From positions 186,001-250,000 of the forward strand of contig NZ_QWJJ01000006.1 in NCBI RefSeq assembly GCF_003575965.1: 64,000 nucleotides of DNA. The letters run 5' to 3'. The translations under genes and the position numbers were made by a program. This document shows, piece by piece, positions 13,383 to 56,666 of this stretch. This DNA is from Pseudooceanicola sediminis. GTDB taxonomy: Bacteria > Pseudomonadota > Alphaproteobacteria > Rhodobacterales > Rhodobacteraceae. Under the pieces are notes generated by a model. The model had not been told where the DNA came from and made no database searches. It saw nothing but the letters and a program-made list of their open reading frames with translations. Numbering within the stretch: the first letter of the stretch is position 1; every line of letters starts with the position of its first letter.

Positions 13383-14062
13383 TCGACAAATCAAGACCTT
13401 GCCCGCCATTTCCAACGCTTGAGCCACGCCTTTGACGATCACCGGCGAAACGAATTTGCAAAATTCGATACGGCGCCCCCTTGCCGGGTTGCCTGCAAAC
13501 GCCTAACTGATGCTGAGGCGGGTGCTGCCCTTCTCGTGAACGGTTACATTCCGGTGGCCTTAAGCAAATCCGAGGGAGCTGGCTCTGTCCGGGCCCTGGT
13601 CCGGTTACCTGGCGCCCACCTGATCATCAGGTCCTCGGGAATGCACTAACCAAACGGTTGCGTTGCGGGCCCGCCACTTTCCCCCGACTCTATCGCACAA
13701 GCCGCCCGTGGCGGTGGCGCCCCCGGAGACGGCTGATGCGACGGCGGCTGCGCTGACGCCCGGCTGCGCGTGGGCAATGGTTTCATCTGCAATGGTTAAC
13801 GCTGCGCGCAGGGTGTCGGTGCGACGTCGGTCGCAGCGCGCGGCGACTCGGCGCGATATGCCAGGGAAACAAGGCGAATGGCCGAAATCCGAACGTCGGT
13901 ATCCGAACGGTATCTGTACGGTATCTGAACGGTGCAGGCCGCCCGCCCCGGGCCGGGTTAAGGCAGCGTGCGGTGTCAAGGCAGCGGAGGAGCACGACCC
14001 GTCGGCGCACAGCGCGGGCGGCACCCGGAGCCGAGGTCGCGCCCGCCGTGTGCCAGGCTGGA
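13383..14062. other. Gene-poor GC-rich spacer
   Basis: No convincing gene was found in about 680 bases. Open frames occur on both strands (for example a 76-codon TTG frame from 13419), but they lack ribosome sites and protein-like composition. The stretch holds the 11-bp repeat array listed separately. It may be decayed coding DNA or a long untranslated region after the ClpP-like gene. Confidence 0.5.
13897..13940 (+). repeat. 11-bp direct-repeat array, copy A (CGGTATCTGNN)
   Basis: Four consecutive 11-bp units begin at 13897, 13908, 13919 and 13930. Three start CGGTATC and the last starts CGGT only. The leader CGAAATCCGAACGT directly precedes unit 1, and a similar leader precedes the arrays at 35.4 and 56.4 kb. 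No gene overlaps it. Confidence 0.75.
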
Positions 14063-14395
14063 TCAGGTACGGGAGTGGGCCACCGGGGAATATCCCCGCG
14101 CCGCGCTGCGTCTGGGCCCGCGACGGTCAGGCGCCGGGGCAAGCTGGCGCGCGGACTGGCCGAGACGACGACGGACCCTGCCGGGGCACGCGGTCTTTGG
14201 CAGGCTGGTCTGGGCAGATGCACGGAAGGCGGAACAGTGGGCGGTGCAGAGGGCATCGCGGCACAGAAGGCGGCACAGAGGGAGGCACGGAGGGAGGCAC
14301 AGGGCGCGACTTGTGCGCGTCGGGCGGACCGTCGCGGCCTGTTGCGATTGGGCGGCGGCAACGGCCAACGACAGGGCCACCATCATGCGCCACAT
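14063..14395 (-). CDS. Possible small secreted Cys-rich protein, perhaps decayed
   Basis: This 110-aa frame starts with a ribosome site (GGAAAGGAAAGCG before ATG) and a signal-peptide-like N-terminus, MWRMMVALSLAVAAAQS. The rest is unusual: a Cys/Pro/Leu repeat (PPCLPLCRLLCRDALC) coded by 12-bp tandem repeats at 14269-14304, then an Arg-rich tail. It follows the EVE gene by 58 bases on the same strand. The start signals look real but the body does not look like a folded protein. A frame-shifted remnant is as likely as a functional gene. Confidence 0.3.
   Translation of the reverse strand: MWRMMVALSLAVAAAQSQQAATVRPTRTSRALCLPPCLPLCRLLCRDALCTAHCSAFRASAQTSLPKTACPGRVRRRLGQSARQLAPAPDRRGPRRSAARGYSPVAHSRT
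14269..14304 (+). repeat. 12-bp tandem repeat, three units
   Basis: Three 12-bp units, GGCGGCACAGAG, GGAGGCACGGAG and GGAGGCACAGGG, follow one another directly. Similar GGC-rich sequence extends on the left side. They fall in the doubtful small secreted frame on the opposite strand and could arise by replication slippage. Confidence 0.6.
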
Positions 14396-14453
14396 CGCTT
14401 TCCTTTCCGGTGCCGCGCGGCGCGGGTCGAGCGGCGAGGATGCGGGCGCGGGA

Positions 14454-14900
14454 TCACGCGCCCAGATCGAGGTCGCGCGACGGGACCCCCATCGCTTCGG
14501 CAATCCGGCGCATGTCATCGACCGAGATCCGCCGCTTTGGCCCGCGCAGCAAAAGCCCCCAGTTGCCGGGATGATCCCGCGTCAGGTCCAGCCTGTCCAG
14601 AAGCGGGCGGATGGGCGCGGGGCGGGCCCCGGGCAGATAGGCCACGTCGACCCGGTAGGGATGGAACCCCATGGCCTGCGTGGCATGATATGGCGCGTCT
14701 GAGGTGACGCGGCCTATCGCGGTAAAGGCCTGAACCGGCGCGCCCGTTCCCATGCCCTGGCGCGGGGCATAATAGGCCAGCCAATCGCCCTTTCGCAGCG
14801 CCTTGACCGCGTCGTGCCTGCCGTGGCCCAGCTGGGCAAAGCCACCGTCGACACCGCCCTGTACATGGTCAGCCGAGGCGATGCCGATCCAGCAGGTCAT
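14454..14900 (-). CDS. EVE domain-containing protein
   Basis: This 148-aa single-domain EVE (PUA-like) protein runs from MTCWIGIASADHV through GGFAQLGHGRHDAVKALRKGDWLAYYAP and FTAIGRVTSDAPY to a C-terminal MRRIAEAMGV. EVE domains bind modified bases in DNA or RNA in the known cases, with an aromatic cage. I chose the ATG at 14900, which overlaps the stop of the VOC gene (ATGA), not the longer frame from 15083 that runs through that gene. It is cotranscribed with the VOC protein. Its physiological role is not known. Confidence 0.87.
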   Translation of the reverse strand: MTCWIGIASADHVQGGVDGGFAQLGHGRHDAVKALRKGDWLAYYAPRQGMGTGAPVQAFTAIGRVTSDAPYHATQAMGFHPYRVDVAYLPGARPAPIRPLLDRLDLTRDHPGNWGLLLRGPKRRISVDDMRRIAEAMGVPSRDLDLGA

Positions 14901-15325
14901 GACTTTGGCCCATCCGGCGCCCGGCCCGCCTGTTCCGCGGTATGTGCGGTGATCGTATAGCCGAAGGGATCCTGAAAGGCGAAGTAGCGACCGAAGGGGC
15001 CATCCTTGGGGGCGAAGGCGATGGTAACGCCCCGGGTCTGGAGATGTGCGTGCAGCGCGTCGGCGTCGTCGCAGCCGAACCACAGGGCAATGCCGTGGCC
15101 GAGCGGGCGGGTCGCCCCGAGGTCAACGACGGGGGTGCGCACGGCAAAGGGGATCGGCCTTGTATCGAAAACCACCGCGCCCGGGGGCGCGAAGGGCGCC
15201 GGGGTCAATCCGACGATCTGCGTATAGAAGGCGCGGGCGGCGTCGAGGTCGGCCACCTGAATACCGATGAAGTCGGGGCCGATGAGGTGGGGTTGTGTGG
15301 AGTGGGGTTCGGTGGAGTGGGGCAT
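14897..15325 (-). CDS. VOC-family (glyoxalase/dioxygenase fold) protein
   Basis: This 142-aa protein has a single vicinal-oxygen-chelate module pair: FIGIQVADLDAARAFYTQIVGL near residues 19-40 and the closing motif YFAFQDPFGYTITAH near 112-126. The first 14 residues (PHSTEPHSTQPH) are a short His/Pro/Thr repeat and may be an artefact of an early start. VOC proteins need a divalent metal, but the usual His-Glu ligands are only partly evident, so catalysis is uncertain. It is divergent from a MarR gene, a common arrangement for small detoxification proteins, and coupled to the EVE gene. Confidence 0.85.
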   Translation of the reverse strand: MPHSTEPHSTQPHLIGPDFIGIQVADLDAARAFYTQIVGLTPAPFAPPGAVVFDTRPIPFAVRTPVVDLGATRPLGHGIALWFGCDDADALHAHLQTRGVTIAFAPKDGPFGRYFAFQDPFGYTITAHTAEQAGRAPDGPKS

Positions 15326-15346
15326 GTCGATTGTGTTCCGTCGGCT

Positions 15347-15376
15347 ATGACATTAATATCAGGGGACTGATATAAT
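15347..15376 (+). promoter_or_regulatory. MarR promoter with overlapping inverted-repeat operator
   Basis: An ATGACA -35-like hexamer (15347-15352) and a perfect TATAAT -10 (15371-15376) lie 18 bases apart. Between and across them is a perfect inverted repeat, ATATCAG-GGGA-CTGATAT (15356-15373). A further half site, CTGATAT, lies at 15386-15392. A dimeric MarR protein bound here would block its own promoter and probably the divergent VOC/EVE promoter. Confidence 0.7.
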
Positions 15377-15405
15377 ATAAGCCCACTGATATTGAAAGCT
15401 GAAAG

Positions 15406-15840
15406 ATGCCACCACCCGAAAATGACGTGCCCTTCACCCCGCACGAGTCGCTGGGCTATGCCTTGAAGCGCGCCCAACAGGCGCTGCGCCTGCACATGGA
15501 CAGGCGGCTGAAGGCGTTTGGCCTGACGGCGCCGCAGTACAACGTGCTGTGCAGCCTGGAGGCGGAACCGGGGGCGTCCAACGCCCAGCTGGCGCGGCGC
15601 GCCTTCGTGACGCCGCAAACCATGCAATCCATGTTGGTCAAGCTGGAGCGCGCCGCCCTGATCGAGCGGACCCCGGATAGCGACCATGGCCGCATTCAGC
15701 GCACGCAGCTGAGCCGGTCGGGACGTGAAACCCTTAGCAAGGCGCATCAGGCCGTTCAGGAAACAGAGCGTCTGGCGCAGGCGGCAGCCTCTCCCGACGC
15801 GATGAAGATGCTGTTGCGCGTTGCCGAGGCGCTGTCGTAG
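15406..15840 (+). CDS. MarR-family transcriptional regulator
   Basis: This 144-aa winged-helix dimer has typical MarR length. An N-terminal dimerisation helix (SLGYALKRAQQALRLHMDR) is followed by the HTH (GASNAQLARRAFVTPQTMQSMLVKLERAALI, residues 55-87) and the wing with RTPDSDHGRIQRTQLS. The divergent VOC/EVE operon and the operator over its own promoter point to local regulation, probably derepression by a small phenolic or other organic ligand. Confidence 0.92.
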   Translation: MPPPENDVPFTPHESLGYALKRAQQALRLHMDRRLKAFGLTAPQYNVLCSLEAEPGASNAQLARRAFVTPQTMQSMLVKLERAALIERTPDSDHGRIQRTQLSRSGRETLSKAHQAVQETERLAQAAASPDAMKMLLRVAEALS

Positions 15841-15941
15841 CGCAACCGCGAGGTGGGGGAGGCCAGAGGAAGGCCAGAAGAGGGAGGCGAGAGGCCCCGG
15901 TGGGACCGGGGGGCCGTTTGGGGGGGCGCTGGTGGGCTGTG

Positions 15942-16244
15942 TCAGGCCCGCATGTATTGCCACCCGTCGCGCTGGCGTTCGGCCAGATGCAGGACGGCGG
16001 CGGTGACAACTGTCAGGCCTTCGGGGGCGCTGCGGCCCGTTCTTGCAAGCGTATTGCCGCAGATCCGCAACAGCGCATCCGTCTCGGGGTCGGGGTGTTC
16101 CAGCGCCGCGGCCACGGCGGCGGCGTTCACCACGATCTCGCAGCGGGCGTCGGGCGCGGCCTTCAGCAGGTTGCGGGCGTTGTTGCGCGCACGTGCCAAT
16201 GCGTCGGGTTCGGGCGCGTGAATGAGCAGGCTGATGGGGGTCAC
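15942..16244 (-). CDS. DsrE-like small protein
   Basis: This 100-aa protein starts with GTG overlapping the stop of the ATPase gene (GTGA). The pattern SLLIHAPEPDALARARNNARNLLKAAPDARCEIVVNAAAVAAAL resembles the DsrE/F fold, and ICGNTL carries the single conserved-type Cys. It is the last gene of the importer operon. DsrE-type proteins relay sulfur, so a link to sulfonate or other sulfur-compound use is possible but not proven. The family call is moderate because short Ala-rich alpha/beta proteins look alike. Confidence 0.6.
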   Translation of the reverse strand: MTPISLLIHAPEPDALARARNNARNLLKAAPDARCEIVVNAAAVAAALEHPDPETDALLRICGNTLARTGRSAPEGLTVVTAAVLHLAERQRDGWQYMRA

Positions 16245-16972
16245 AGGGCGGCTCCGATGCGTTTTCCGATGGCGTCCAGTGCCGGGTCCGCGCGGTCGCG
16301 CGGGCGGGCAAGGGCGATATGTTCGTCCAGGACGATGCCCGCCGGGCTGCCGGCCAGCACGATGACACGATCCGCCAGAAAGGCGGCCTCGGCAATATCG
16401 TGGGTGACGAAAAGCACCGCCTTGCCGCTGGCCTGCCAGAGGCGCAGCACCTCGTCCTGGAGGCTTTCGCGGGTCAGGGCATCGACGGCCGAAAAGGGTT
16501 CGTCCATCAGCAACAGGTCAGGTTGCACCGCGAGTGCGCGCGCAATGCCGCCCCGCTGGATCTGCCCGCCCGAGAGCTGGTGCGGATAGCGGTCCGCCAG
16601 ATGGCTGAGGCCGGTCAGTTCCAGCACGTCGTCGACGCGCGCGCGCCGGGTGGCGGCGGACACCTTGAGCCCCTCGAGCCCGTAGCCGATATTGGCGCGC
16701 AGATCGCGCCAGGGCATCAGGCGGCCATCCTGAAAGACGATGGCACGACGGCGGCGGTCCGGTGCTTCGGAGGTGGTGACCGTCACCGTGCCCGTGTCGG
16801 GGGCGACCAGGCCTGCGACGACCCGCAGCAGCGTCGACTTGCCCACGCCGGAGCTGCCGACGATCGCGACGAATTCGCCCGGCTCGACCACCAGGTCGAA
16901 GCCTTGCAGCACCGGGTGCGGCGCGCCGGGAAAGCTGAGGCCGATGCCCTGTGCGTTCAGGATGGGCGCCAT
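16241..16972 (-). CDS. ABC transporter ATP-binding protein, SsuB/TauB type
   Basis: This 243-aa ATPase belongs to the nitrate/sulfonate/taurine importer class. It has Walker A GSSGVGKSTLL near residue 38, a Q-loop FQDGRLMPWRDL, signature LSGGQIQRGGIARAL near 133, Walker B LLLMDEPFSAVD near 153 and switch VTHDIAEA. The signature has GGIARAL where RVAIARAL is common, a tolerated change. Its start overlaps the permease by 16 bases, and its stop overlaps the DsrE-like gene. Confidence 0.92.
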   Translation of the reverse strand: MAPILNAQGIGLSFPGAPHPVLQGFDLVVEPGEFVAIVGSSGVGKSTLLRVVAGLVAPDTGTVTVTTSEAPDRRRRAIVFQDGRLMPWRDLRANIGYGLEGLKVSAATRRARVDDVLELTGLSHLADRYPHQLSGGQIQRGGIARALAVQPDLLLMDEPFSAVDALTRESLQDEVLRLWQASGKAVLFVTHDIAEAAFLADRVIVLAGSPAGIVLDEHIALARPRDRADPALDAIGKRIGAAL

Positions 16973-17811
16973 TTCAGGATCCTTCCTTCGACCAGGCCGA
17001 AGACCCAGTCGCTGAGACTGTAGACCAGCGAAATCGCCAGCATGTAGACCACCACCGCGTCATAGGCCCCGACCCCGGCAGCAGCGTTCATTTCCTGGCC
17101 CATGCCCGGCACGCCCAGCAGTTCCGCCGCGATCAGGGTCATCCACGCCTGTCCGACGCCCGTGCGCAGACCGGAAAAGATGCCGGGTGCCGCGCCGGGC
17201 AGGGTCACCGTCCAGTGGCGGCGCAGGAAGCTGCCGTGACCGAAGGCGCGGGCCAGTTCGCCCAGGCGCGGGTCGAGGTTGCGCACGGCAGAGGCGGTGG
17301 CGAAGTAGTTGACCCAGAACACCCCGATGGAGATCACGAAGGCCGCCCCGGCGTGGCTGACCTTGAACCAGGCGATGGCAAAGATGACCCAGGCCAGCGG
17401 CGGGATCGGGCGCAGGATGCGGGCCACCCAGCCGTGCAGGTCGTCGAACGTGCGGCTGGTTGCGGACAGGAACCCGACCAGGACGCCCGCCAGGCTGCCC
17501 AGCCCCAGGCCCCAGACATAATGGATCATGCTGGACCCGATGGCGGGCAGCAGCCGGTCGGTGCGCCATTCGTCAAGAAAGGCGGCGGGCAAACGGAAGG
17601 GATCGGGCACCGTGCCCGGGCGCATCCAGCCGAAGGCCTGGGCGGATTTCCACAGCCCGATGAACAGCACCAGCCCTGCCAGCCCCATCAGGGCGCGGCG
17701 CCACCGCCGATCAGACGACGGCCGGCCGGAAGGCTGCGGCGCGGAGGACGGCTGCCGGTCGGAAGAAGGCCGCCCGGCAGCGGACTGCCCGTCAGGGGAC
17801 AGCAGGGCCAA
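16957..17811 (-). CDS. ABC transporter permease, SsuC/TauC type
   Basis: This 284-aa permease has six membrane segments from about residue 40. The EAA loop is LGELARAFGHGSFLRRHWTVTLPGAAPGIFSGLRTGVG (about 175-210, split here only by notation). The frame opens at TTG 17811 with GGGGA upstream, and its first 40 residues are a Ser/Pro/Arg repeat (GRPSSDR, GRPSSDRR). The membrane part begins at ALMGLAGLV, so an internal ATG near 17688 is also possible. The gene follows the binding-protein gene with a 2-base gap. Confidence 0.88.
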   Translation of the reverse strand: MALLSPDGQSAAGRPSSDRQPSSAPQPSGRPSSDRRWRRALMGLAGLVLFIGLWKSAQAFGWMRPGTVPDPFRLPAAFLDEWRTDRLLPAIGSSMIHYVWGLGLGSLAGVLVGFLSATSRTFDDLHGWVARILRPIPPLAWVIFAIAWFKVSHAGAAFVISIGVFWVNYFATASAVRNLDPRLGELARAFGHGSFLRRHWTVTLPGAAPGIFSGLRTGVGQAWMTLIAAELLGVPGMGQEMNAAAGVGAYDAVVVYMLAISLVYSLSDWVFGLVEGRILKWRPS

Positions 17812-17813
17812 TG

Positions 17814-18836
17814 TCAGTTCCCCGCGATGCTGTCATAGACCGAGAGGTCGAAGAGCGCGTCGAGGTCGACGGGCTGCTTGAGGGTGCCCTGCTCGGCCTG
17901 GAAATCGTGCATGACGCGGGTGCCGTCGACGATCCGGTTGGGATCGGCCACGAAGGATGCGCCGGTGCGTTCGATCGCCGCCTGGATGATCGCGGGATCC
18001 ATGCGGCCACCGCCGACGTACTTGGCAACCAGCGGCGTCGCCGCCTCGGCGTCATTCACCAGCATCTCGGTCGCGCGGACATGTGCGGCCACCAGCGCCG
18101 CGATCTGATCGCCATGATCGGCCAGCACGCCTTCGCGCACCGCCAGCACCGCCCCGGGCTGGTTCGCAAACAGCTGCGAGCCTGCGGCGACGACACGGGC
18201 GTCGGGATCCTGCGCCAGAACGGAACTGACGACGGGTTCCAGGATCGCCGCGCCATCAACGGCACCGGTCAAAAGCGCCTGCTGCACCTGGGCGGCGCCC
18301 TGAGCAATGATTTCGACCTGGGACGGGTCGATCTGAAGCCCCTTGGTCAGCCAGTATTGCAGCACGGTTTCCGGCACCGATCCGCGCGGGAAGGTCGAGA
18401 TCACGGGTTTGCGGCCATGGTCGGCGGCAAAGCGTTCAAAGGCCGTCGCGGTGTCGCCTTCGTCGAAATAGGGGGCCAGGTCACCGAGGGCGACAACCGA
18501 GATCTGCTCGATCACGTTGGAGGCGACGACCTTGATGTCGGCACCACGGGCGCGCGCCACCATGGCGGGGCCGATGCCGAAATAGGCCACGTCGAGCTGA
18601 CCGGCCAGAAGGGCCTGCACCATGGCGGGGCCTTCCTGGAATTGCACGAGGTCGGCGTCGATCCCGGCCTCTTGCATCCAGCCTTCTTCAAGCGTGACGA
18701 AGAGCTGGGCATCGGGAAGGATCGGCATATAGCCGATTTCCAGTGTGACAGTGTCCTGCGCAAGGACGGGCTGACTGCCGAACGCGAGGGCGGCAGAGAG
18801 GACAGCAGAGAGGGTGAGACGACGCAAAAGGGCCAT
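17814..18836 (-). CDS. Periplasmic binding protein, NMT1/SsuA-like
   Basis: This 340-aa solute receptor is made from ATG 18836, which has AAGGAG 7 bases upstream. A longer frame from 19145 reads through noncoding repeats and is rejected. The signal peptide is LRRLTLSAVLSAALAFGSQPVLA, written here as residues 4-26. The mature protein begins QDTVTLEIGYMPILPDAQLF, typical of sulfonate/nitrate/pyrimidine-precursor receptors, and AGQLDVAYFGIGPAMVARARG is the family core. Substrate is not readable; the DsrE-like gene at the operon end hints at a sulfur compound. Confidence 0.9.
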   Translation of the reverse strand: MALLRRLTLSAVLSAALAFGSQPVLAQDTVTLEIGYMPILPDAQLFVTLEEGWMQEAGIDADLVQFQEGPAMVQALLAGQLDVAYFGIGPAMVARARGADIKVVASNVIEQISVVALGDLAPYFDEGDTATAFERFAADHGRKPVISTFPRGSVPETVLQYWLTKGLQIDPSQVEIIAQGAAQVQQALLTGAVDGAAILEPVVSSVLAQDPDARVVAAGSQLFANQPGAVLAVREGVLADHGDQIAALVAAHVRATEMLVNDAEAATPLVAKYVGGGRMDPAIIQAAIERTGASFVADPNRIVDGTRVMHDFQAEQGTLKQPVDLDALFDLSVYDSIAGN

Positions 18837-19122
18837 TTGGAAACTCCTTATTTGCCATGGATCTGGCACGTCGTTCCGCGAAAGAAAAGTGAGCCCTGCA
18901 AGATAGGAACAGCGATCAGGCCCGATGCGCGTTGGGTGGAAGGATGTTCCCGCAGCGCGGGGTTTCGGAAAACGCCGGACCGAGGCACCCCGCCCGACAT
19001 TATCGCCCCTGCGGGAGGGGGTTTCGTCACCGGATCGGGCGGCCTGAAGCAGGGCCGGGGATAGGGCAACGGAGGATTTCGGGCGCCGCTGTCGTTTGAC
19101 AGGTCGGGCTTTTACCGGGCGA

Positions 19123-19177
19123 CGGTGGGCGCATGGTGGGCGCACGGTGGGCGCATGGTGGGCGCACGGTGGACCTG
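19123..19177 (+). repeat. 11-bp direct-repeat array, copy B (22-bp higher order)
   Basis: Five 11-bp units begin at 19123, 19134, 19145, 19156 and 19167. They alternate CGGTGGGCGCA and TGGTGGGCGCA, so the first four form two exact copies of a 22-bp unit. The phase and CGGT start match the arrays at 13.9, 25.7, 35.4 and 56.4 kb, but the rest of the unit differs. Confidence 0.8.
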
Positions 19178-19214
19178 CGCCGCTTTACCGGGCCGGTCAT
19201 GCGCCGGAATCAGG

Positions 19215-19238
19215 AAAGGCCCCGCGATCCGCGAGGCC
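19215..19238 (-). terminator. Intrinsic terminator after nusB
   Basis: On the minus strand, GGCCTCGCG-GAT-CGCGGGGCC forms a 9-bp stem with one mismatch and a 3-base loop, followed by TTT. It lies about 25 bases after the nusB stop, at the end of the riboflavin gene cluster. Confidence 0.65.
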
Positions 19239-19262
19239 CCTGGCGGTTTACCGGCGTCGGGT

Positions 19263-19760
19263 TCAGAACGCTTCGGGCTTGGCCTCGCGCGCCATGTGGT
19301 CGAGGACGGCGTTGACGAACTTCGGCTCTTTGGTTTCGGGGAAGAACGCCTTGGTCACGTCGACATATTCGACGATGACGACCTTGGGCGGTGCGACGCC
19401 TTCGATCATCTCGGCACCCGCGGCGCGGAACAGGGCGCGCAGGGTCGGATCGATGCGGGCGATGGGCCATTTGGCGACCAGCGCACGGTCGGTCATCTGG
19501 TCGATCTTGGCCTGCCAGTTCACCGCATCGCGCATGGTCTTGCGGAACAGGTCAAAGTCGCCCTCGGCCATCTCGTCGCCCTCGTAGGTGGCGCCAAAGC
19601 GGTGCTCCTCGAATTCGTGGATCACCTTGTCGACGGTCTGGCCCGCGGCCTCCATCTGGAACAGGGCCTGCACGGCATAGAGACGCGAAGCAGAGCGCAT
19701 CTTGCGCTTCTGGTTGCCGGAGGGTGCAGCGGGCTGCGGGATCTGAGTGTCGTCGGTCAT
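19263..19760 (-). CDS. nusB: Transcription antitermination factor NusB
   Basis: This 165-aa all-helical RNA-binding protein of the NusB-NusE antitermination complex is needed for rRNA transcription. Hallmarks are RSASRLYAVQALFQMEA near residues 22-38 and the conserved C-terminal helices, RIDPTLRALFRAAGAEMI and VVIVEYVDVTKAFF, with KFVNAVLDHMARE at the end. The chosen start, MTDDTQIPQ, replaces a longer frame that overlaps ribH. It is the last gene of the ribE-ribH cluster, a very common ribH-nusB pairing, and is followed by a terminator. Confidence 0.97.
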   Translation of the reverse strand: MTDDTQIPQPAAPSGNQKRKMRSASRLYAVQALFQMEAAGQTVDKVIHEFEEHRFGATYEGDEMAEGDFDLFRKTMRDAVNWQAKIDQMTDRALVAKWPIARIDPTLRALFRAAGAEMIEGVAPPKVVIVEYVDVTKAFFPETKEPKFVNAVLDHMAREAKPEAF

Positions 19761-19785
19761 CGGTGGGCCTATCGGGTCAGGTGCC

Positions 19786-25642: not shown

Positions 25643-27691
25643 ATGACGCGGCGCGGCGCCGCGCCGCCCGGACCGCCCGGGCAGGAGAGCGAGGAGCGGC
25701 ACCGCGTCCCGTCGGTATCTTGTCGGTATTACGTCGGCCCAGTGGGGGTCTGGATGCAACCGAGGGTGCGGCGCATCCTGCGGCTGGCGGGCTATCGCCT
25801 GCGCATCGGTCCGGCCCGCCCCGGCGATCTGGTCGCCGTCTGGGGACACGCCGAAGCCGCCCGGCGCGGCGCGGCCCTGGCGAAACGGCGCGGCGCGGCG
25901 CTCCTGCGGATCGAGGATGCCTTTCTGCGATCCCTGGAGCCGGGGCGGGCCGGGGCGCCGCCGATGGCCCTGACCGTCGACCACCGGGGATGCCATTTCG
26001 ATGCGACACTGCCATCTGATCTGGAACACCTGCTGAAGAGCGAACCGCTGAACGATCCGGCCCTGCTGGCGCGCGCCGAAGGTGTCATGGCCCGGCTGCG
26101 AGAGGCGCACCTGACGAAATACGCCGCCGTCGACCCCGACCTTGCCCTGCCGACGCCGGGATTTGTGCTGGTGATCGACCAGGTGCGCGGCGATGCCTCG
26201 GTCCGGTTGGGGCGTGCGGATGCGGCGACATTCGCACAGATGCTGGCCCGTGCGCAGGCGGAAAACCCCGGCGTGCCGGTGGTGATCAAGACCCACCCCG
26301 AAACCCGTGCCGGTTTTCGCGCCGGGTATTTCGGCGCCTCGGATGCGACCGACCGGGTCACGCTGCTGGACAGTGCGATCAGCCCGTGGCGCCTGCTGGA
26401 GGCCGCAAGCGCGGTTTATACCGTCAGTTCCCAATTGGGGTTCGAGGCGATCCTGGCCGGGCACCGGCCGCGCGTCTTCGGCATTCCCTTCTATGCTGGC
26501 TGGGGTCTGAGCGAGGACCGCCACCCCGACATGCCCGGACCCGACCGGAGGGGGCGGAGACTGACGCCGGCGCAGCTGGTCGCCGGGGCGATGCTGCTGT
26601 ACCCGCTGTGGTACGATCCCTGCCGCGACCGCCTGTGCGCCGCCGAGGACACGATCGAGGCGCTGGCGGCACAGGCCCGCAGCTGGCGCGAGGATCGGCA
26701 GGGCTGGCGCGGACTGAACATCCGGCTGTGGAAACGCCAGGCGTTCCAGCGGTTTTTCGGCACGGTCGTGCCCATGCGGTTCACCCCTGCCCCGGATCGG
26801 CGCCGGGTGATGAGCTGGGCCGCGCGCACACCACAGGCCGACACCGTGGTACGGGTCGAGGACGGGTTCCTGCGATCCCGCGGGCTGGGCGCGGCGCTGG
26901 TACCGCCGCTGTCGCTGGTTCTCGACGATCTGGGGATCTATTATGACCCCGCCCGCGAGAGCCGGCTGGAGCGGTTGATTGCCACGCGCAGCACCTTGCG
27001 CGCCGATCAGCGAGCCCGCGCCGAGGCCCTGATCGCGCGGCTGCGGGCGGCGGGTCTGAGCAAGTACAACACGGGCCAGGTGCCTGACCTGTCGCACTTG
27101 CGCGCCGGCCGACGCCTGCTGGTGCCGGGACAGGTAGAGGACGATGCCTCGGTCCGGCTGGGCGCGGGCGCCGTGCGCACCAACCTGGCGCTGTTGCAGG
27201 CGGCGCGGGCGGCCCATCCCGACGCGGTGATCCTGTACAAGCCGCACCCGGATGTCGAGGCCGGGCTGCGGCCCGGCGCGATCGATGCCGGGGGCCTGGC
27301 GGATGCGGTGTTGCGCGATGTCGATCCGGGGGCGGTGCTGGGCCAGGTCGATGCGGTCTGCACGATGACATCGCTGATCGGGTTCGAGGCCCTGCTGCGC
27401 GGCCTGCCCGTGCAGGTGCTGGGCCAGCCGTTCTATGCCGGATGGGGCCTGACGGACGACCTGGGGCCGCAGGTGGATCGGCGGCGGGCGCGGCCCGACC
27501 TGGCCGGTCTGGTCCACGCGACCCTGATCGACTATCCGCGCTACCGCGATCCGGTCAGCGAGCTGCCCTGCCCGGTCGAAGTGGTGGTGGATCGGCTGGC
27601 CGAGGGGCGCGCCCTGCCGCGCGGACCGGCGCTGCGCCTGCTGGCACGGGCACAGGGGCTGGCCGCATCCCATGCCCGGATATGGCGGTAG
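25643..27691 (+). CDS. kpsC: Capsular polysaccharide biosynthesis protein KpsC-like, dual Kdo transferase
   Basis: This 682-aa protein has two homologous halves. Module 1 shows RIEDAFLRSLEPG near residue 90, VPVVIKTHPETRAGFRAGYF near 210 and SSQLGFEAILAGHRPRVFGIPFYAGWGL near 260 (abridged). Module 2 repeats these as RVEDGFLRSRGLG, ILYKPHPDVEAGLRPG and SLIGFEALLRGLPV with GQPFYAGWGL. In known KpsC the halves add alternating Kdo residues. The frame opens at ATG 25643, but an 11-bp repeat array lies inside the first 35 codons. ATG 25754 (MQPRVRRILRLAG) is therefore the more likely start. Confidence 0.9.
   Translation: MTRRGAAPPGPPGQESEERHRVPSVSCRYYVGPVGVWMQPRVRRILRLAGYRLRIGPARPGDLVAVWGHAEAARRGAALAKRRGAALLRIEDAFLRSLEPGRAGAPPMALTVDHRGCHFDATLPSDLEHLLKSEPLNDPALLARAEGVMARLREAHLTKYAAVDPDLALPTPGFVLVIDQVRGDASVRLGRADAATFAQMLARAQAENPGVPVVIKTHPETRAGFRAGYFGASDATDRVTLLDSAISPWRLLEAASAVYTVSSQLGFEAILAGHRPRVFGIPFYAGWGLSEDRHPDMPGPDRRGRRLTPAQLVAGAMLLYPLWYDPCRDRLCAAEDTIEALAAQARSWREDRQGWRGLNIRLWKRQAFQRFFGTVVPMRFTPAPDRRRVMSWAARTPQADTVVRVEDGFLRSRGLGAALVPPLSLVLDDLGIYYDPARESRLERLIATRSTLRADQRARAEALIARLRAAGLSKYNTGQVPDLSHLRAGRRLLVPGQVEDDASVRLGAGAVRTNLALLQAARAAHPDAVILYKPHPDVEAGLRPGAIDAGGLADAVLRDVDPGAVLGQVDAVCTMTSLIGFEALLRGLPVQVLGQPFYAGWGLTDDLGPQVDRRRARPDLAGLVHATLIDYPRYRDPVSELPCPVEVVVDRLAEGRALPRGPALRLLARAQGLAASHARIWR
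25713..25745 (+). repeat. 11-bp direct-repeat array, copy C
   Basis: Three 11-bp units begin at 25713, 25724 and 25735 (CGGTATCTTGT, CGGTATTACGT, CGGCCCAGTGG), preceded by CGTCC. The array ends 8 bases before the internal kpsC ATG at 25754. It resembles copy D at 35.4 kb (TGT/CGT unit ends) more than copies A and E. Confidence 0.65.
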
Positions 27692-27713
27692 CGGAAAGCG
27701 GGTTTCTGGCGGG

Positions 27714-27775
27714 CTGGGTATTTGGGGGCTGGGTATTTGGGGGCCGGGTATCTGGGGGGCCGGGTATCCGGGGGG
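27714..27775 (+). repeat. 15/16-bp G-rich tandem repeat, four units, between convergent kpsC and ribD
   Basis: Two exact 15-bp units, CTGGGTATTTGGGGG, are followed by two 16-bp variants, CCGGGTATCTGGGGGG and CCGGGTATCCGGGGGG. Eight G-runs of three or more are separated by loops of 2-5 bases, a G-quadruplex pattern on the kpsC strand. The element fills the space between the kpsC stop and the ribD stop, where a terminator would be expected. Confidence 0.75.
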
Positions 27776-27777
27776 CG

Positions 27778-35143: not shown

Positions 35144-35405
35144 GGCGCCGCGTGCCCCTTTCTGGAAACGTCAGAATGGCCCGGGGAGCCTTAATATAGC
35201 GACAATATGTCCAATTTTCAGGACTTCGCCCGGCCGTTTCCCGCCGAAGCTGCGGGACGGGCCAAGTGCCCCTGCGCGCCGTCGGACGGCGATCACCGAC
35301 CCGTCGAAAGCGTCACGCGGGGAGCCGCCGGAGGCCCGGCGCGCCCTCCGAAAGGGATCGGCACGGGACAGGCGTGGGCCGCAAACCGGCCGCGAAATGC
35401 AACGT

Positions 35406-35449
35406 CGGTATCCTGTCGGTGTTGCGTCAGTAATCGGTCGGTGCGCCGC
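35406..35449 (+). repeat. 11-bp direct-repeat array, copy D
   Basis: Four 11-bp units begin at 35406, 35417, 35428 and 35439 (CGGTATCCTGT, CGGTGTTGCGT, CAGTAATCGGT, CGGTGCGCCGC). The leader CGAAATGCAACGT is shared in form with copies A and E. The second unit ends on the mttB-homologue stop codon, so the array straddles the 3' end of that gene on the opposite strand. Confidence 0.65.
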
Positions 35450-50668: not shown

Positions 50669-50859
50669 GCAGGCCCGGCGACGCCGGCGGTGCGCGTGGG
50701 CCCGCGTAGAAGAGACATCACTGCGCGGCGCAAATGGCATGATAAAGCGCATTTTTCGCATAAAAGGTCCGGGTGATCCTGCGGTCAGGCCCCTTCCGCC
50801 TCTGGCGCTTGTGGCGAGGGGGCGTTATTGGGGGCCAAGACGCATCTGAAGGGCATTTC

Positions 50860-52572
50860 ATGGCACGGCACCTCATCACCTCGGCCATTCCCTATATCAA
50901 CGGGATCAAACACCTCGGCAATCTGGTCGGCTCGCAATTGCCGGCGGATCTGTATGCGCGCTATCAGCGTGGGCGGGGCAACGAGGTGCTGTTTCTCTGC
51001 GCCACCGATGAACACGGCACCCCGGCTGAGCTGGCCGCGACCAAGGCGGGCAAGCCTGTCGCGGAATACTGCGCCGAAATGCATGATGTGCAGGCGCGTA
51101 TCGCGCAGGGGTTCCGTCTGAGCTTCGATCATTTCGGCCGCTCTTCCTCGGTGCATAACCGTCAACTGACCCAGCATTTTGCGGGGGTTCTGGCCGACCG
51201 CGGGTTGATCCGCGAGGTGTCGGAAACCCAGATGTATTCGCCCGATGACGGCCGTTACCTGCCCGATCGCTATATCGAGGGTACCTGCCCGAACTGCGGT
51301 TTCGACAGCGCGCGCGGCGACCAGTGCGACAATTGCACAAAACAGCTGGACCCCGTCGACCTGATCAACCCGCACTCCACCATCTCCGGCGCGACGAACC
51401 TGGAAATGCGCGAGACAAAGCACCTGTATCTGCGTCAGTCCGAAATGCGTGATGAATTGCAGGCCTGGATCGACTCCAAGACCGACTGGCCCGTGCTCAC
51501 GACCTCGATCGCCAAGAAATGGCTGAACGATGGTGACGGTTTGCAGGACCGCGGGATCACACGCGACCTGGATTGGGGCGTGCCGGTCAAGAGGGGCACG
51601 CAGGACTGGCCCGGGATGGAAGGCAAGGTCTTCTACGTCTGGTTCGACGCCCCCATCGAATACATTGCCTGCGCCCAGGAATGGGTCGATGCGGGCAAGG
51701 GCACCGACTGGCAGCGCTGGTGGCGCACGGATGCCGGCGCGGACGACGTGACCTATACGCAGTTCATGGGCAAGGACAACGTGCCCTTTCACACCCTGTC
51801 GTTCCCTGCCACCATCCTTGGGTCGGGCGAACCCTGGAAACTGGTCGATTACATCAAATCGTTCAACTATCTGAACTATGAGGGTGGCCAGTTCTCGACG
51901 TCCCGCGGGCGGGGCGTGTTCATGGACCAGGCGCTTGAGGTGCTGCCGCCGGATTACTGGCGCTGGTGGCTGCTGAGCCATGCGCCCGAAAGTTCGGATG
52001 CCGAATTTACCTGGGAGAACTTTCAGGCCTCGGTCAACAAGGATCTGGCCGATGTGCTGGGCAACTTCGTCAGCCGCGTCACCAAGTTCTGCCGGTCGAA
52101 ATTTGGCGAAGTTGTGCCCGAAGGCGGCAGTTTCGGTGCACAGGAAGATGCGCTGATCGCGGACCTGACGGCCCGGATCGCCCGCTATCAAGACATGATG
52201 GACGAGATGGAGGTGCGCAAATCAGCGCAGGAGTTGCGCGCGATTTGGGCCGCAGGCAACGAATACCTGCAATCGGCAGCCCCCTGGACCGTGTTCAAGG
52301 AAGACCCAGAGCGTGCGGCGGCCATCGTGCGCCTGTCGTTGAACCTGATCCGGCTGTACGCCATTCTGTCGGCGCCGTTCATCCCCGATGCGGCAGCAAC
52401 GCTGAAAGAGGCGATGAAACTGGACGAAATGCCCTGGCCGGATGACGTGGCAGCGGCCCTTGCCAGTCTTGCCCCCGGCACCGGCTTTGACGTCCCCGAA
52501 AATCTGTTTCGCAAGATCAGCGACGAAGAACGCGAAGATTGGCAAGGCCGTTTCAGCGGCAAGCGGGACTGA
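50860..52572 (+). CDS. metG: Methionine--tRNA ligase
   Basis: This 570-aa enzyme charges tRNA-Met. The start is [21 protein letters not shown] (abridged at the HIGH region, here HLGN). A zinc knuckle, [17 protein letters not shown], lies near 145-161. The KMSKS-equivalent loop is [11 protein letters not shown] near 346, the form used by the MetG1-type enzymes without a C-terminal dimerisation domain. The anticodon-binding helical domain fills 400-570. A frame start at 50773 adds 29 residues of noncoding sequence and is rejected. Confidence 0.96.
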
Positions 52573-52773
52573 GCCGGGACGCAGAGACCTGTTGGACCCG
52601 TCCCTTGGGCCCGAATTTTGGCTGGGCGGGCTCAGCAACGCGGCATCGCAATCTCTTTGCCCCGGGCGCGCCCCTGATTGCAAGATTGCGCCTCCGGTGG
52701 GGACCGATGCGGTCGGGTGCCCCGCCAGCGCCTTGCGACAGCCTATCCGCTCGGGGTGCGCGGCGGGAGTTTC

Positions 52774-55335
52774 CTAGAACTCCTCCCAGCTTTCCGGGAC
52801 GCCAGCGGCGGCACGCGCTGAGGGTTGCCCCGCAACGGCAGCGCGGCGCGACTTTGGTTTTTGCACGTTCGTGCGGCCGCCGGTCTTGCTCTTGCCTGTC
52901 ACCTTTACCTTGAACTTCTCGGCCGCTTCGACGAGCGAGTTTGCCTCGCTGGTCAGGGCATGGCTGGCCGCCGTCGTCTCTTCGAACATCGCAGAATTCT
53001 GCTGCGTGACCTGGTCTAGGTCGTTCATTGCGTTGTTGATTTCGTTCAGCCCAAGGGATTGTTCGCGTGCCGAACTGGCAATTGTCGCCACCCGGGTGGA
53101 AATATCGGCAACCGATGTCACGATATCACCCAGCGCCTCGCCCGTCTTGTCGACCAGATCGACCCCGGATTTCACGTGATTGCCGCTGGCCGAGATCAGT
53201 TGATTGATCTCTCGTGCCGCATCGGACGACCGCTGGGCAAGGGCGCGAACTTCGGTCGCCACGACCGCGAACCCGCGCCCGGCATCGCCAGCCCGCGCGG
53301 CCTCGACCCCGGCATTGAGCGCCAGCAGGTTGGTCTGAAAGGCGATGTCATCAATCACCCCGGTGATCTTGGAAATTTCCTGTGACGAAACCTTGATCGC
53401 ATCCATCGCGGTGATCGCATCGCGCGCGACCTGGCCCCCCATTTCCGCCTTGGCCTGCGCGCCGCCCGCCAGCTTGCTGGCCTCGTCCGCGCCGATGGCG
53501 GCAGATTTCACCGAGGCCGTAAGCTGATCGAGTGCAGCCGCCGTTTCCTCCAGCGTCGCGGCCTGCTTTTCCGTGCGTTTGGCGAGATCATCTGCCGCGT
53601 TGCTGATTTCCCCGGTTTCGCCCCGGATCGACTCTGCGTTTTGAATAACCGCGCACATCGCATCGTGCAGCGATTCCACCGCCTGGTTGAAATTGCTGCG
53701 CAATTGTTCGTATTCGGCACGAAATTCCTGGTGGATCTGGCAGGTCAGATCCCCCTGTGCCATCTGCCGCAAGCCGACTTTCAGCGTATCCACCACCAGT
53801 TGCTGCTGGCGGGAGGTTTCAAGACGATCTTCCTCGGCGGCCCTCATGGCCTTATGTGCCTCGGTGATGTCGGAGCCGATAAAGACCACGCGCTGCATTT
53901 CCCCGTCCCGGCTGAGAATTGGGCTGAGACTGCCTTCGAGAAACAAGTCGGCATTGCCGGCGCCGGGCAGGCGAAACTTTCCGCTGACGGGTTTTCCTTC
54001 CCGCAGGGTGGCGATGGATTGCGCCAGATCCATCGTCGCCTCGTCACCGCGCGACAAGGTTGATGGCGTGTTGCGCCGGCAGAACTCTTCCTCGCTCATC
54101 CCGGCCAGTTCACAAATGCGCGGGTTGCAGCCGACAACGTTCTGATGATTGTCGAAATCAATTCGAACCTGGTGGGTGTCAATGGCAGAGAGAACCGCCT
54201 GATTGAGCTTTTCCTGAGAGATATCTTCCAGTTCCATCACGAAACCGATGACGTCCCCGCCCAGATCCCGGACGGAATCTGCGGCGACACGAATGCTCGC
54301 CTCGCCCCACTTTACCTCGGTGTTCTTGGGCAGGTCGGCGTGAGGCGCGCGAACCAGGTCGACAAAGCTGGCCAGCTCAGGCAATTGCGCCGCGCCCTGT
54401 CCTTCCAGCTTGCCCGCCGAGAAATCGGGCCAGACAGCGCGTATCGCCGGGCCTGCCCCGTCAAGCAGCAGGTCGCAGGCGGGATTGCAGAACACGATCT
54501 TCATGTCTGCGTCCAACAGCATCATCGCCGCGCCCGTACTGTCGATTGCCGCGCTCTTGAACGCATTTTCGCGCTGCGTCGCGCGGGCCGCCTGCAAGCC
54601 GACCCGAAAATCATCAAGCCGCTTGGCAATGCCGCCAATTTCATCGGCACGCCCCGTACACTCGATCGCGATATCGTAGTGACCCCGCCCGACCAGGCCC
54701 ATCTGCGCCGCCACCCTGCCCAGGGGCCGTGAGATGTAGCGGTAGAACAAGGTCGCGCACAGCAGCAGCGACAGAACGAACAGCAGCCCTGCAATGGCTG
54801 TCGCGTAGATGTGTTCGGCCATGGCGGCAGCGATGCGTTTTTCTGATGACCACTGAGTGACAAACGCCCCGACAACCACGGCATCCTTGCCGAACCGCGA
54901 TGGATAGGCCCAGATCCGCAGGTCCGTGTCTATCTGCGGCTGTTCCGTGCTGATCGCGCGCTCGGCCAGCCTTTTCGCAGTCTCGGCATCATAACCCGGG
55001 CGTTTCATGTCATACAGGACGGTGCCGTCCGGCTGGATCGCGGACACGCCCACCAGATCATCGGGGATGCCGCGGGCAAAGCCCGAGACGACATCTTCGA
55101 CCGCTTCGGGGCGCGAAAACTTGAGCGCACCTGACACCTGAGCGCCGACGCCCGATGTTGCCTCTGCCGCACGAATGCCGATCCAGGTTTCGATCAGGTT
55201 CCGTTCCTTGCGCAGGGCAATCAACTCTGATGCGGTGACCACCATCAGGATACACAAGGCCACGATCAGCGTTGCCCGGAACAAGGTGCTCTTGAAAACC
55301 GGGATGGCACGAATTTCGGTGTCAGGCGTGGTCAT
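52774..55335 (-). CDS. Methyl-accepting chemotaxis protein with HAMP and two PAS domains
   Basis: This 853-aa chemoreceptor has TM1 (about 16-36), a periplasmic domain (37-175), TM2 (176-198), HAMP (199-250), PAS 1 (about 262-380), PAS 2 (about 385-505, with NPRICELAGMSEEEFCRRN), a second HAMP-like helical stretch, and a signalling hairpin (about 560-800). The hairpin tip DIAFQTNLLALNAGVEAARAGDAGRGFAVVA (abridged) is the MCP hallmark. The tail ends ESWEEF, a CheR/CheB-docking pentapeptide type. The PAS domains suggest redox or cytosolic sensing. A secreted Cache protein gene lies directly upstream. Confidence 0.94.
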   Translation of the reverse strand: MTTPDTEIRAIPVFKSTLFRATLIVALCILMVVTASELIALRKERNLIETWIGIRAAEATSGVGAQVSGALKFSRPEAVEDVVSGFARGIPDDLVGVSAIQPDGTVLYDMKRPGYDAETAKRLAERAISTEQPQIDTDLRIWAYPSRFGKDAVVVGAFVTQWSSEKRIAAAMAEHIYATAIAGLLFVLSLLLCATLFYRYISRPLGRVAAQMGLVGRGHYDIAIECTGRADEIGGIAKRLDDFRVGLQAARATQRENAFKSAAIDSTGAAMMLLDADMKIVFCNPACDLLLDGAGPAIRAVWPDFSAGKLEGQGAAQLPELASFVDLVRAPHADLPKNTEVKWGEASIRVAADSVRDLGGDVIGFVMELEDISQEKLNQAVLSAIDTHQVRIDFDNHQNVVGCNPRICELAGMSEEEFCRRNTPSTLSRGDEATMDLAQSIATLREGKPVSGKFRLPGAGNADLFLEGSLSPILSRDGEMQRVVFIGSDITEAHKAMRAAEEDRLETSRQQQLVVDTLKVGLRQMAQGDLTCQIHQEFRAEYEQLRSNFNQAVESLHDAMCAVIQNAESIRGETGEISNAADDLAKRTEKQAATLEETAAALDQLTASVKSAAIGADEASKLAGGAQAKAEMGGQVARDAITAMDAIKVSSQEISKITGVIDDIAFQTNLLALNAGVEAARAGDAGRGFAVVATEVRALAQRSSDAAREINQLISASGNHVKSGVDLVDKTGEALGDIVTSVADISTRVATIASSAREQSLGLNEINNAMNDLDQVTQQNSAMFEETTAASHALTSEANSLVEAAEKFKVKVTGKSKTGGRTNVQKPKSRRAAVAGQPSARAAAGVPESWEEF

Positions 55336-55448
55336 GGTGTCATCCTCTACATCGCCCGGCTACGTACGAGCACATGGCCCGGGTCCCGGCTTTCGCGGGC
55401 AGGTCCGACATGGGCCTGCGTGGCGCCGTGGGGCGCCCGCCGCGGGGC

Positions 55449-55475
55449 GCGGGGCGGCGATATGCACCGCCCCGC
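55449..55475 (-). other. Perfect 9-bp hairpin between the Cache and MCP genes
   Basis: GCGGGGCGG (55449-55457) pairs exactly with CCGCCCCGC (55467-55475) across a 9-base loop. It lies 15 bases after the Cache-protein stop and 114 bases before the MCP start. There is no U-run after it on the minus strand, so it may weaken read-through or stabilise the upstream message rather than end transcription. Confidence 0.6.
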
Positions 55476-55489
55476 AGAAAGCGGCGACG

Positions 55490-56059
55490 TCAGTACAGCA
55501 TTTCCGCGTTCAGCCCGACCGTGATCGCCCCGATGACCTCTTGCGTATCGGGGTCCGTCAGGCTGATCGAAATCTGGCCCAGGTAGGCCTGCACCGATTC
55601 ATCGAATTCGACGTCGCCGACATGCACCGCCCCGGTCCCGACGTCATATGTCTCGATGAACTTGGCCTCGTCACCCTGCCAGTAATCGGAGGTCGCGGAA
55701 CTGGCAGCGACATTCATGCCATTGGAATCCATGATGAAAACCTCGGAGATGACGCCGGCGGACTCCTCGACCTGCTGCGACAGGAAGTCGGCCGCGGGCG
55801 ACATCAGGACCTCATCGACCAGGGGATGATGCGACGTGCCGACCTGGGCCCGCCAATCCAGATCCATCTGGTTGATCCTGTCCTGGCTGAGATGACCGAG
55901 GCGAGCGTTTTGCGCACGAACGGCCTCGATCAACGTCGGATCGAACGCCCAGAGCAGAATTTCACTCTCGAGGTAGTCCCGCATGGACGGTTCGTAGTCG
56001 TTGGCCATGACAGGTGCCGCCAGTACGGTCAGCGCCAGCCCTGCGATCATTGCTTTCAT
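55490..56059 (-). CDS. Secreted PDC/Cache-type sensor protein
   Basis: This 189-aa protein's signal peptide is MIAGLALTVLAAPVMA, cleaved before NDYEPSMRD. The rest resembles the periplasmic Cache/PDC domain of chemoreceptors and kinases: RINQMDLDWRAQVGTSHHPLVDEVLMSPAADFL (abridged), EVFIMDSNGMNVAASSATSDYW and EVIGAITVGLNAEML at the end, the typical PDC closing strand. It has no membrane anchor or output domain. It is encoded just before the MCP, so it may bind ligand in the periplasm and present it to that receptor. Confidence 0.85.
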   Translation of the reverse strand: MKAMIAGLALTVLAAPVMANDYEPSMRDYLESEILLWAFDPTLIEAVRAQNARLGHLSQDRINQMDLDWRAQVGTSHHPLVDEVLMSPAADFLSQQVEESAGVISEVFIMDSNGMNVAASSATSDYWQGDEAKFIETYDVGTGAVHVGDVEFDESVQAYLGQISISLTDPDTQEVIGAITVGLNAEMLY

Positions 56060-56666
56060 CGTAAGTTCCCTTCACGAAAAACCAGTTTCGCCGGGAAACA
56101 TGCGCCAAAAGAATTGCCTCGCCCTTAACACTCGCGCATTCGGTGTCGTGTTCATTGCCTAAAATCCGATATGCCGCCCGTTGGCGCGGGGTCACGCAGC
56201 GCCCTGCTTTGGCCGGGATGCGGCGCGGGGTTGGCCGCGTGTGCGGTGGTCGGGATCGTCCCCGCCTTGGCCCCGGTCGGGGCGCGAAGCCTTGGCCCGC
56301 ACCCCCGTTGGCACGCGGAAAGCGCAGGGCGATCCCCCCGAAACGGAACGTCGGTATTTGAACGGTATCTGGGCGGTGTCTGGGCGGTCTTTGGACGGTG
56401 AAGGCTGGCCCTTTGGCAATGCGCCATCGTGGCCGCAGAACGGAGCGCGCGCCCCAAGGTTCGACGAGGTGCCCGCCTGCATATCGGGCGAGATGCCCGC
56501 AGCGCATCTTGCGGCCTGTGGATCATCGGTTCAGACGATGGTGCTGCCCTGCCCTGCACTGGGATGCCGCCCAGCCGACGGGGAGCCTGACGTCTTGCCC
56601 GTGGCGGATCACGGGCGATTGCGCTGTCGGGGATTAAAGCCGTCGGGCGCGCAGGGCGCAGCCCTC
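56060..56666. other. Gene-poor spacer with an 11-bp repeat array
   Basis: About 607 bases lie between the Cache gene and the ferredoxin reductase 3' end with no supported gene. Frames of 70-200 codons are Arg/Pro/Ala-rich noise. The promoter of the Cache gene should be in the first 100 bases. The array at 56352-56406 lies in the middle. Confidence 0.5.
56352..56406 (+). repeat. 11-bp direct-repeat array, copy E
   Basis: Five 11-bp units begin at 56352, 56363, 56374, 56385 and 56396 (CGGTATTTGAA, CGGTATCTGGG, CGGTGTCTGGG, CGGTCTTTGGA, CGGTGAAGGCT). The leader CGAAACGGAACGT matches the one at copy A in form and spacing. This is the longest array with the CGGTATCTG-type core in the window. Confidence 0.8.

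Follow-up and report, generated by a model that had tools for sequence, protein, structure and literature searches.

To our knowledge, few DNA signals with a polarity across the whole chromosome have been described in bacteria, FtsK orienting polar sequences (KOPS) and Chi among them, and these are single short words. KOPS are bound by the gamma domain of FtsK, which is thereby steered to dif. Other described repeats have related architectures: repetitive extragenic palindromes and bacterial interspersed mosaic elements (REP/BIME), with their REPtrons, are small, intergenic, lineage-specific repeats in hundreds of copies that need a copying agent; the 11-bp ParR/parC iterons and the TraB recognition sequences (TRS) are short arrays of direct repeats recognised by a segregation protein or a translocase, at one locus per plasmid; and the 11-bp direct-repeat operators of PhoB and CarH set sites head to tail with a period of about one turn. 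KOPS are single 8-mers, GGGNAGGG, used across distant bacteria (PMC13342612); PhoP of Mycobacterium tuberculosis recognises 7-bp motifs set 4 bp apart (PMC4832192), and BldC binds direct repeats as multimers (PMC5859096). Here we describe direct-repeat arrays of 11-bp period in a 64,000-nucleotide stretch of Pseudooceanicola sediminis DNA (contig NZ_QWJJ01000006.1, positions 186,001 to 250,000; the window), where candidate arrays lie at window positions 13897 (A), 19123 (B), 25713 (C), 35406 (D) and 56352 (E), and their relatives in other genomes.

In the Roseobacter group, some marine bacteria have from tens to well over 100 copies of a four-unit 11-bp array, about nine in ten of them directed with replication. 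Like KOPS, the arrays are dispersed and skewed to the leading strand, but each is built of four 11-bp units that are lineage-specific (CGGTAT-N5, GTATGGC-N4, TATGR-N6) and hold no GGGNAGGG core. Like REP/BIME they are small, intergenic, lineage-specific and in need of a copying agent, but they lack a hairpin beyond shuffles in eight folded stretches and have a strong replication polarity, and the Y1 (TnpA_REP-type) transposase PF01797 was found in 0/23 Pseudooceanicola genomes (control positive in 5/14), on which ground a REPtron was rejected. With the PhoB/PhoP, CarH and BldC operators they share the head-to-tail order, the period of about one turn and the several units; they differ in being replication-oriented, not favoured in divergent gaps and present at ~145 per genome. 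ParR/parC and TraB TRS are likewise short direct-repeat arrays, whereas the present arrays are dispersed chromosomal copies, and BLAST against phages and plasmids (PLSDB) with one 62-base query, low-complexity filter on, gave no match. The near-identical units of a variable-number tandem repeat (VNTR) were seen at 0/62 Rhodobacterales loci, and within the window in copy B. The arrays depart in a tested defining feature from KOPS, REP/BIME, VNTR and Rfam families, and a search of titles and abstract openings, with subscription journals and preprints outside its scope, returned no description of such arrays.

We compared three genomes in detail: that of the window (G000, a Pseudooceanicola of 4.44 Mb), Pseudooceanicola spongiae (G022) and a third genus (G290), with genes called throughout by a purpose-written gene finder. 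A two-unit pattern matched G000 409 times (162+247), against 14 matches (6+8) for the reversed control pattern. The 864 kb of G000 that we read (the window and 40 stretches) held 46 arrays of at least two units and 35 of at least three; the 580 kb of this that had not been chosen for arrays held 19 of at least three units, which extrapolates to ~145 per genome. Array-bearing stretches had been selected in 40/60 cases for P. spongiae, 20/20 for G290 and 11/20 in one G000 set, and no such selection applied to the rest of the G000 stretches or to 20 evenly spaced ones of P. spongiae. The canonical form is a leader, three CGGTATNNNNN units and a final CGGTG unit, all head to tail. In G000 the consensus leader has GAAA near -20 and ATT near -10, then CGT, and is followed by CGGTATYTGAA CGGTATCCGAG CGGTATCTGAA CGGTGC; the P. 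spongiae consensus ends its leader in TGT and continues with three units, then CGGTGCGATTT; that of G290 reads CTGTATCGCGT CGGTATNACGT CGGTATNNCGT CGGTG. The information of the motif sums to 57-80 bits, with no small-sample correction.

Array strand matched the surrounding GC skew for 30/35 arrays in G000, 51/59 in P. spongiae and 21/22 in G290, and excision of the array itself left the counts at 29/35, 50/59 and 21/22. Stretches not chosen for arrays gave 16/19 (G000) and 10/12 (P. spongiae). Across 63 loci of at most 8 kb, 57/64 arrays followed the skew, as did 54/59 at named Rhodobacterales loci after removal of four P. spongiae repeats and one Roseibium array; a held-out set of 24 Rhodobacterales loci, tested afterwards and partly from the same genomes as the first set, gave 23/24. 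Loci of other taxa (17/80 of the main set, 8/32 of the held-out set) had been removed before these counts. Where |skew| exceeded 0.04, agreement was 38/41 (P. spongiae), 50/54 (63-locus set) and 19/20 (held-out set). Arrays with other units behaved in the same way: 24/28 unique TATGGC-unit loci from five genera and 17/17 unique non-palindromic TATG-unit loci from eight genera followed the skew, duplicate loci having been removed from both counts and three palindromic loci from the second. This polarity is not gene orientation in disguise, because only about half of the genes lie on the leading strand (210/423 in G000, 338/736 in P. spongiae and 120/225 in G290). Lone CGGTAT words are weakly polar or not polar (128:83, 129:136 and 103:69 in the same order), and gene strand was rejected as an organising rule on mixed results, though the gene on the 3' side of an array lies more often on the opposite strand, in 29/43 (G000), 40/59 (P. 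spongiae) and 13/22 (G290) cases. GGGNAGGG is separately present and polar, with 124/133 (G000), 199/230 (P. spongiae) and 39/52 (G290) occurrences on the leading strand in stretches with |skew| > 0.04, and the arrays agreed with its local majority in 26 cases and disagreed in 9 in G000 (P. spongiae 39/17 with 3 ties, G290 15/4 with 3 ties).

At 480 kb and 621 kb of G290 the arrays run against their neighbours, as they do weakly at 246 kb, and the local skew is reversed along with them. The plus-strand arrays at 2.58-2.94 Mb of P. spongiae looked exceptional against the negative skew of sampled stretches nearby, but for the five that were checked the 3-kb surroundings had positive skew (5/5). 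Inversions seem to carry arrays along.

Between close species the arrays stay in place. In the samples of G000 and P. spongiae, 169 pairs of adjacent genes are conserved (reciprocal best hits have a median protein identity of 90%); of the 106 pairs with a gap of at least 40 bp in either genome, eight have an array in both, two in P. spongiae only, none in G000 only and 96 in neither, and in the two P. spongiae-only cases the G000 array is present, hidden in a called gene. All 10 comparable loci therefore share an array in the same aligned direction, with flank alignment weakest at L043 and L050, and nine of the 10 fall in G000 stretches not chosen for arrays; array loss in P. spongiae is under-sampled because its stretches were mostly chosen for arrays. 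In eight of these orthologous pairs (two were left out for unclear register), unit positions 1-5 were identical at 134/140 sites, positions 6, 7 and 9 at 61/84, and positions 8, 10 and 11 at 39/84. In 6/8 pairs only the P. spongiae copy has GT at the end of the spacer that precedes unit 2, and in the other two both copies have it; the leader reads CGT in G000 and TGT in P. spongiae in 5/8. Such parallel change of leader and spacer at orthologous loci fits sites that track a common reader. At a glycerate-kinase-like locus (named from its sequence), matched in 22/23 genomes of the genus, nine of 11 aligned Pseudooceanicola lack the array, and the spacer is 40-78 bp shorter in eight of these and longer in one (G005).

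Between genera, places and units both turn over. None of six conserved gene pairs shares its array with G290, and of four loci from other genera the place is shared in Boseongicola (same direction) and in Roseovarius litoreus, with two not shared. The R. litoreus counterpart of array D sits at the same methyltransferase-family gene end in the opposite direction relative to the gene; in this single case the array lies on the skew-leading strand in both genomes, with a clear skew in R. litoreus (0.127) and a weak one in the window (0.018-0.042). Two Shimia species have an array within a called gene whose frame is open (L185:7143-7186, L207:4069-4112); the array shows few changes, the gene around it being ~82-86% identical. 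Within Pseudooceanicola, 6/23 genomes lie clearly above control (409, 341, 226, 217, 61 and 45 matches). The reversed control of the family search matched eight further genomes 1-4 times each and brought to light a second motif, CGTATGGCNNG, whose presence was confirmed in five genera. A looser pattern (GTAT per 11 bp, three times) matched 54/295 genomes, many once, and brought out more unit types (GTATGACTCCT, GTATGGTTCGG); its control is not neutral, because the reversed pattern (TATG) matches other array variants. A TATG pattern added GTATGGAATCC, ATATGACCTGC and others. Other genera have an equal architecture with different units (GTATGGCNNGC, TATGACTCCTG, TATGGAATCCG), again mostly on the leading strand. 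A palindromic CATATG variant of the 11-bp unit occurs at L380 and L407 of G218 and L403 of G041, where strand direction is unreadable from the core alone because it is palindromic.

A class-wide draw of 289 genomes (four of the own family, 285 other), searched with one pattern that would miss other unit types, gave no dispersed copies in other families; 13/285 had a match, and among the matches listed these were single-locus repeats or isolated matches, while G446 of the same draw gave 17 matches to the reversed control. In an all-genome scan, the 18 loci among the matches listed outside Rhodobacterales had identical spacers in nine cases, two kinds in five and three kinds in four; three identical spacers were found at 0/62 Rhodobacterales loci. 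Lone CGGTAT arrays of 11-bp period whose spacers vary were seen in a cyanobacterium, Bacteroidota and a methanogen (L169, L176, L197, L200), and may be chance or analogous. A viral origin was rejected: of 24 IMG/VR stretches, 15 have identical spacers, eight are unlike the element and one is alike. This last contig (L251) carries a genuine-looking array, CGGTATGACGT CGGTATCGCGT CGGTATTGCGT CGGTGCGAAAT, and may be the edge of a provirus within a carrier.

Some of the copies are flanked by GTTAA boxes, one near -33 and one near +60. Both boxes occur in eight P. spongiae copies, the left only in four, the right only in one and neither in 46 (Fisher 2e-6; spacing 91-94 bp), with corresponding counts of 4, 0, 3 and 27 in G000 (7.5e-4; spacing 91-102) and 12, 8, 12 and 27 at named loci (0.05). 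GANTC is frequent near -50 in the named loci (28 occurrences). Among the arrays listed for P. spongiae between 0 and 2.46 Mb, a list whose completeness up to that point is inferred, spacing is more even than random (coefficient of variation 0.72 vs 0.98, P=0.005). Arrays lie in gaps of 90-900 bp in 20/35 (G000), 50/59 (P. spongiae) and 11/22 (G290) cases, and in called genes in 5/35, 3/59 and 1/22. Divergent gaps held 3 arrays against 5.4 expected by length in G000, 5 against 15.1 in P. spongiae and 1 against 2.5 in G290, and convergent gaps of P. spongiae held 16 against 8.2; depletion and enrichment alike are significant in P. spongiae only. Between co-directional genes the ratio of sense to antisense arrays was 7:6 (G000), 9:20 (P. 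spongiae) and 2:7 (G290).

Target-site duplications and terminal inverted repeats, as a mobile MITE-like element would have, were looked for in the flanks. Direct flank repeats did not exceed shuffled pairing in G000 (3 vs 4.8) or G290 (3 vs 3.8), and a modest excess in P. spongiae (24 vs 12.8) and at named loci (19 vs 11.8) is partly the GTTAA pair; inverted flank repeats showed no general excess in G000 and G290. Similarity between loci extends beyond the array for ~45 bp to the left and 70 bp to the right in a Roseovarius and for ~110 bp to the right in G290. In P. spongiae two copies ~230 kb apart on opposite strands (L125:4073 and L126:12162) are 96% identical over 284 bp including flanks, by segmental duplication or by a copying event; this pair and local tandem duplications excepted, near-identity is not seen among the copies of one genome. 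Such local events include a 90-bp segment repeated three times in tandem in G000, with two half arrays each (L050:774-998), a local amplification, and two array copies 129 bp apart with identical flanks (L062:6094-6255), a recent local duplication.

In the window itself, A, C, D and E have CGGTAT units at an exact 11-bp period (Table 1). CGGTATNNNNNCGGTRT (one mismatch allowed) has eight matches in the window, against 0.25 expected from 100 dinucleotide shuffles, and seven of the eight lie within these four arrays. Array C, with two exact CGGTAT units and a degenerate CGGCC unit, lies in the 114 bp that separate a polysaccharide-export gene from a capsule-synthesis gene; the units of array D start CGGTAT, CGGTGT, CAGTAA and CGGTGC, the third and fourth extending into the 3' end of a minus-strand MttB-family gene. 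All five array positions given in the preliminary description hold on re-reading, as does the leader CGAAA-N-AACGT common to A, D and E, and its suspicion that copy B is unrelated was borne out: B consists of near-identical alternating 22-bp units, GGGCGCACGGTGGGCGCATGGT, without the CGGTAT core.

Table 1. Array features of the window (window coordinates)
Feature	Position	Strand	Sequence and remarks
Array A leader	13883..13896	+	CGAAATCCGAACGT
Array A	13897..13940	+	four 11-bp units: CGGTATCCGAA CGGTATCTGTA CGGTATCTGAA CGGTGCAGGCC
Right-hand GTTAA element 3' of array A	13955..13963	+	GGGTTAAGG; present in part of other copies; assigned from sequence and positional enrichment
Copy B	19117..19172	+	11/22-bp slippage repeat, near-identical units; not in family
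Array C	25713..25745	+	CGGTATCTTGT CGGTATTACGT and degenerate third unit CGGCCCAGTGG
Array D leader	35392..35405	+	GCGAAATGCAACGT
Array D	35406..35449	+	CGGTATCCTGT CGGTGTTGCGT CAGTAATCGGT CGGTGCGCCGC
Array E leader	56339..56351	+	CGAAACGGAACGT
Array E	56352..56406	+	five units: CGGTATTTGAA CGGTATCTGGG CGGTGTCTGGG CGGTCTTTGGA CGGTGAAGGCT

The overall interpretation offered there fared unevenly. A dispersed, mostly intergenic DNA repeat family with one unit per helical turn and B set apart stands, and repeated binding sites are supported over slippage by the conserved core, the free spacers and the Rhodobacterales spacer count. Chance frequency of the arrays, or their absence elsewhere, had been named as refuting the family, and the 409 against 14 own-genome matches do not refute it. 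The suggestion of a site on an RNA helix is not supported, as eight folded stretches showed no structure beyond shuffles (z -1.29 to 1.30) and an Rfam search of the window and 12 loci matched tRNAs only, with no match to an array. Replication orientation, the four-unit architecture, the flanking GTTAAC pair and the lineage-specific units are features beyond the view from one window. Two further window features stand apart: a different tandem array of 15-16 bp period, CGGGTATCTGGGGGGC, at 27699-27776 directly 3' of the capsule-synthesis gene, which contains GGTATC and has no link to the family, and a minus-strand tRNA-His (gtg) at 9951-10027, the sole RNA gene found in the window.

The observations that an explanation must accommodate are the period, the unit number, the polarity, the constraint on the core, the retention of position between two species and the turnover of places and units between lineages. 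We tentatively favour, at a little under an even chance, the hypothesis that the arrays are polar binding platforms for a putative lineage-specific direct-repeat-binding protein that acts in an origin-to-terminus process. Each copy of ~100 bp has an AT-phased leader followed, as a rule, by four 11-bp sites in head-to-tail order, each filling a helical turn; on these sites protein subunits reading direct repeats would line up side by side and cooperatively along a single face of the helix. Since the sites run from origin to terminus, the complex may give direction to a process such as segregation, fork passage or repair. The specificity of the protein would drift, leaving each lineage with its own unit (CGGTAT-N5, GTATGGC-N4, TATGA/G-N6), and the sites of the genome would follow. 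New sites would arise by copying via some mobilising step; copying is required because genera mostly share no positions and a 57-80-bit motif cannot arise often by point mutation. Several points weigh against this hypothesis. The polarity is incomplete, and binomial tests overstate independence because neighbouring arrays share one skew domain; agreement with the KOPS majority is weaker than with skew, because each stretch has few KOPS. Within inverted segments the arrays retain their former direction, as the skew does, so an incorrect orientation is tolerated over long periods, and polarity without function would be explained by a bias of insertion. Only a minority of copies have the GTTAA pair (8/59, 4/34), whose left and right boxes show no correlation in G290; even spacing is likewise not seen in G290 (P=0.53) and is a one-genome effect. 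Occurrence is also patchy, the three-unit CGGTAT pattern being found in 22/295 family genomes, 12 of them with at least five matches and some with a single one.

The same patchiness would suit a small selfish or mobile repeat whose insertion at replication forks takes one orientation, with the core as the site of its own mobilising protein and the unit types as subfamilies. A copying mechanism is needed anyway, fork-biased insertion would yield polarity, and the turnover of places (0/6 pairs shared with G290; 2/4 other-genus loci shared, one in the opposite direction), the eight array-less species with a shorter spacer at one locus, the similarity past the array in Roseovarius and G290 and the near-identical dispersed pair of P. 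spongiae can all be read in its favour. Most copies within a genome are not near-identical, however, and there is no general target-site duplication; old copies retain the core while spacers change, the consensus shifts in parallel at orthologous sites, and Y1 transposases, one candidate mobiliser, are absent from 23/23 genus genomes. We regard a mobile repeat as unlikely, if the most serious competitor. Operator arrays of a transcription factor that reads 11-bp direct repeats, of the OmpR/PhoB type or the BldC/CarH-like MerR type, would explain the spacing, which is typical of such factors, PhoP and BldC among them (PMC4832192, PMC5859096). That explanation is improbable, as orientation tracks replication and not genes, divergent gaps are not favoured in the three genomes, some arrays lie within called genes and ~145 per genome exceeds the usual regulon.

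A transcript-level signal, whether for pausing, Rho-dependent termination or RNA binding, has on its side the enrichment in convergent gaps of P. spongiae and the opposite-strand gene on the 3' side in all three genomes. The YG step per 11 nt may also resemble a run of consensus elemental pause sites; this tandem-pause idea was dropped because orientation follows replication. Both senses occur between co-directional genes, and neither RNA structure beyond shuffles nor an Rfam match was found in the stretches searched, which makes such a signal slightly less probable still than an operator. Chance periodicity or replication slippage is true for copy B, and identical spacers suggest slippage in 9/18 of the listed loci from other taxa and 15/24 IMG/VR stretches. 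For the CGGTAT family it is refuted by the 409 vs 14 matches, by the 0/62 Rhodobacterales loci with three identical spacers and by the conservation of position, orientation and core, and we give it virtually no credence. On balance we place the binding-platform hypothesis, still short of an even chance, above the unlikely fork-biased mobile element, and an operator or RNA signal fits less well.

A broader proposal we consider possible but distinctly doubtful: besides KOPS, and independent of them, Rhodobacteraceae may have another set of polar chromosome landmarks, made of dispersed protein arrays that span four turns and run from origin to terminus. Their recognition code would be rewritten in each lineage together with the putative protein, so that all sites of a genome shift jointly and only the period, the number of units and the polarity are constant. 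If true, such arrays, with a sequence that changes from genus to genus and an architecture that does not, would form a new class of chromosome signal and a natural case of binding-code evolution. If the arrays are mobile instead, they would be a repeat whose insertion reads the direction of the fork, which would also be useful. The array DNA opens a direct experimental route to the putative binder.

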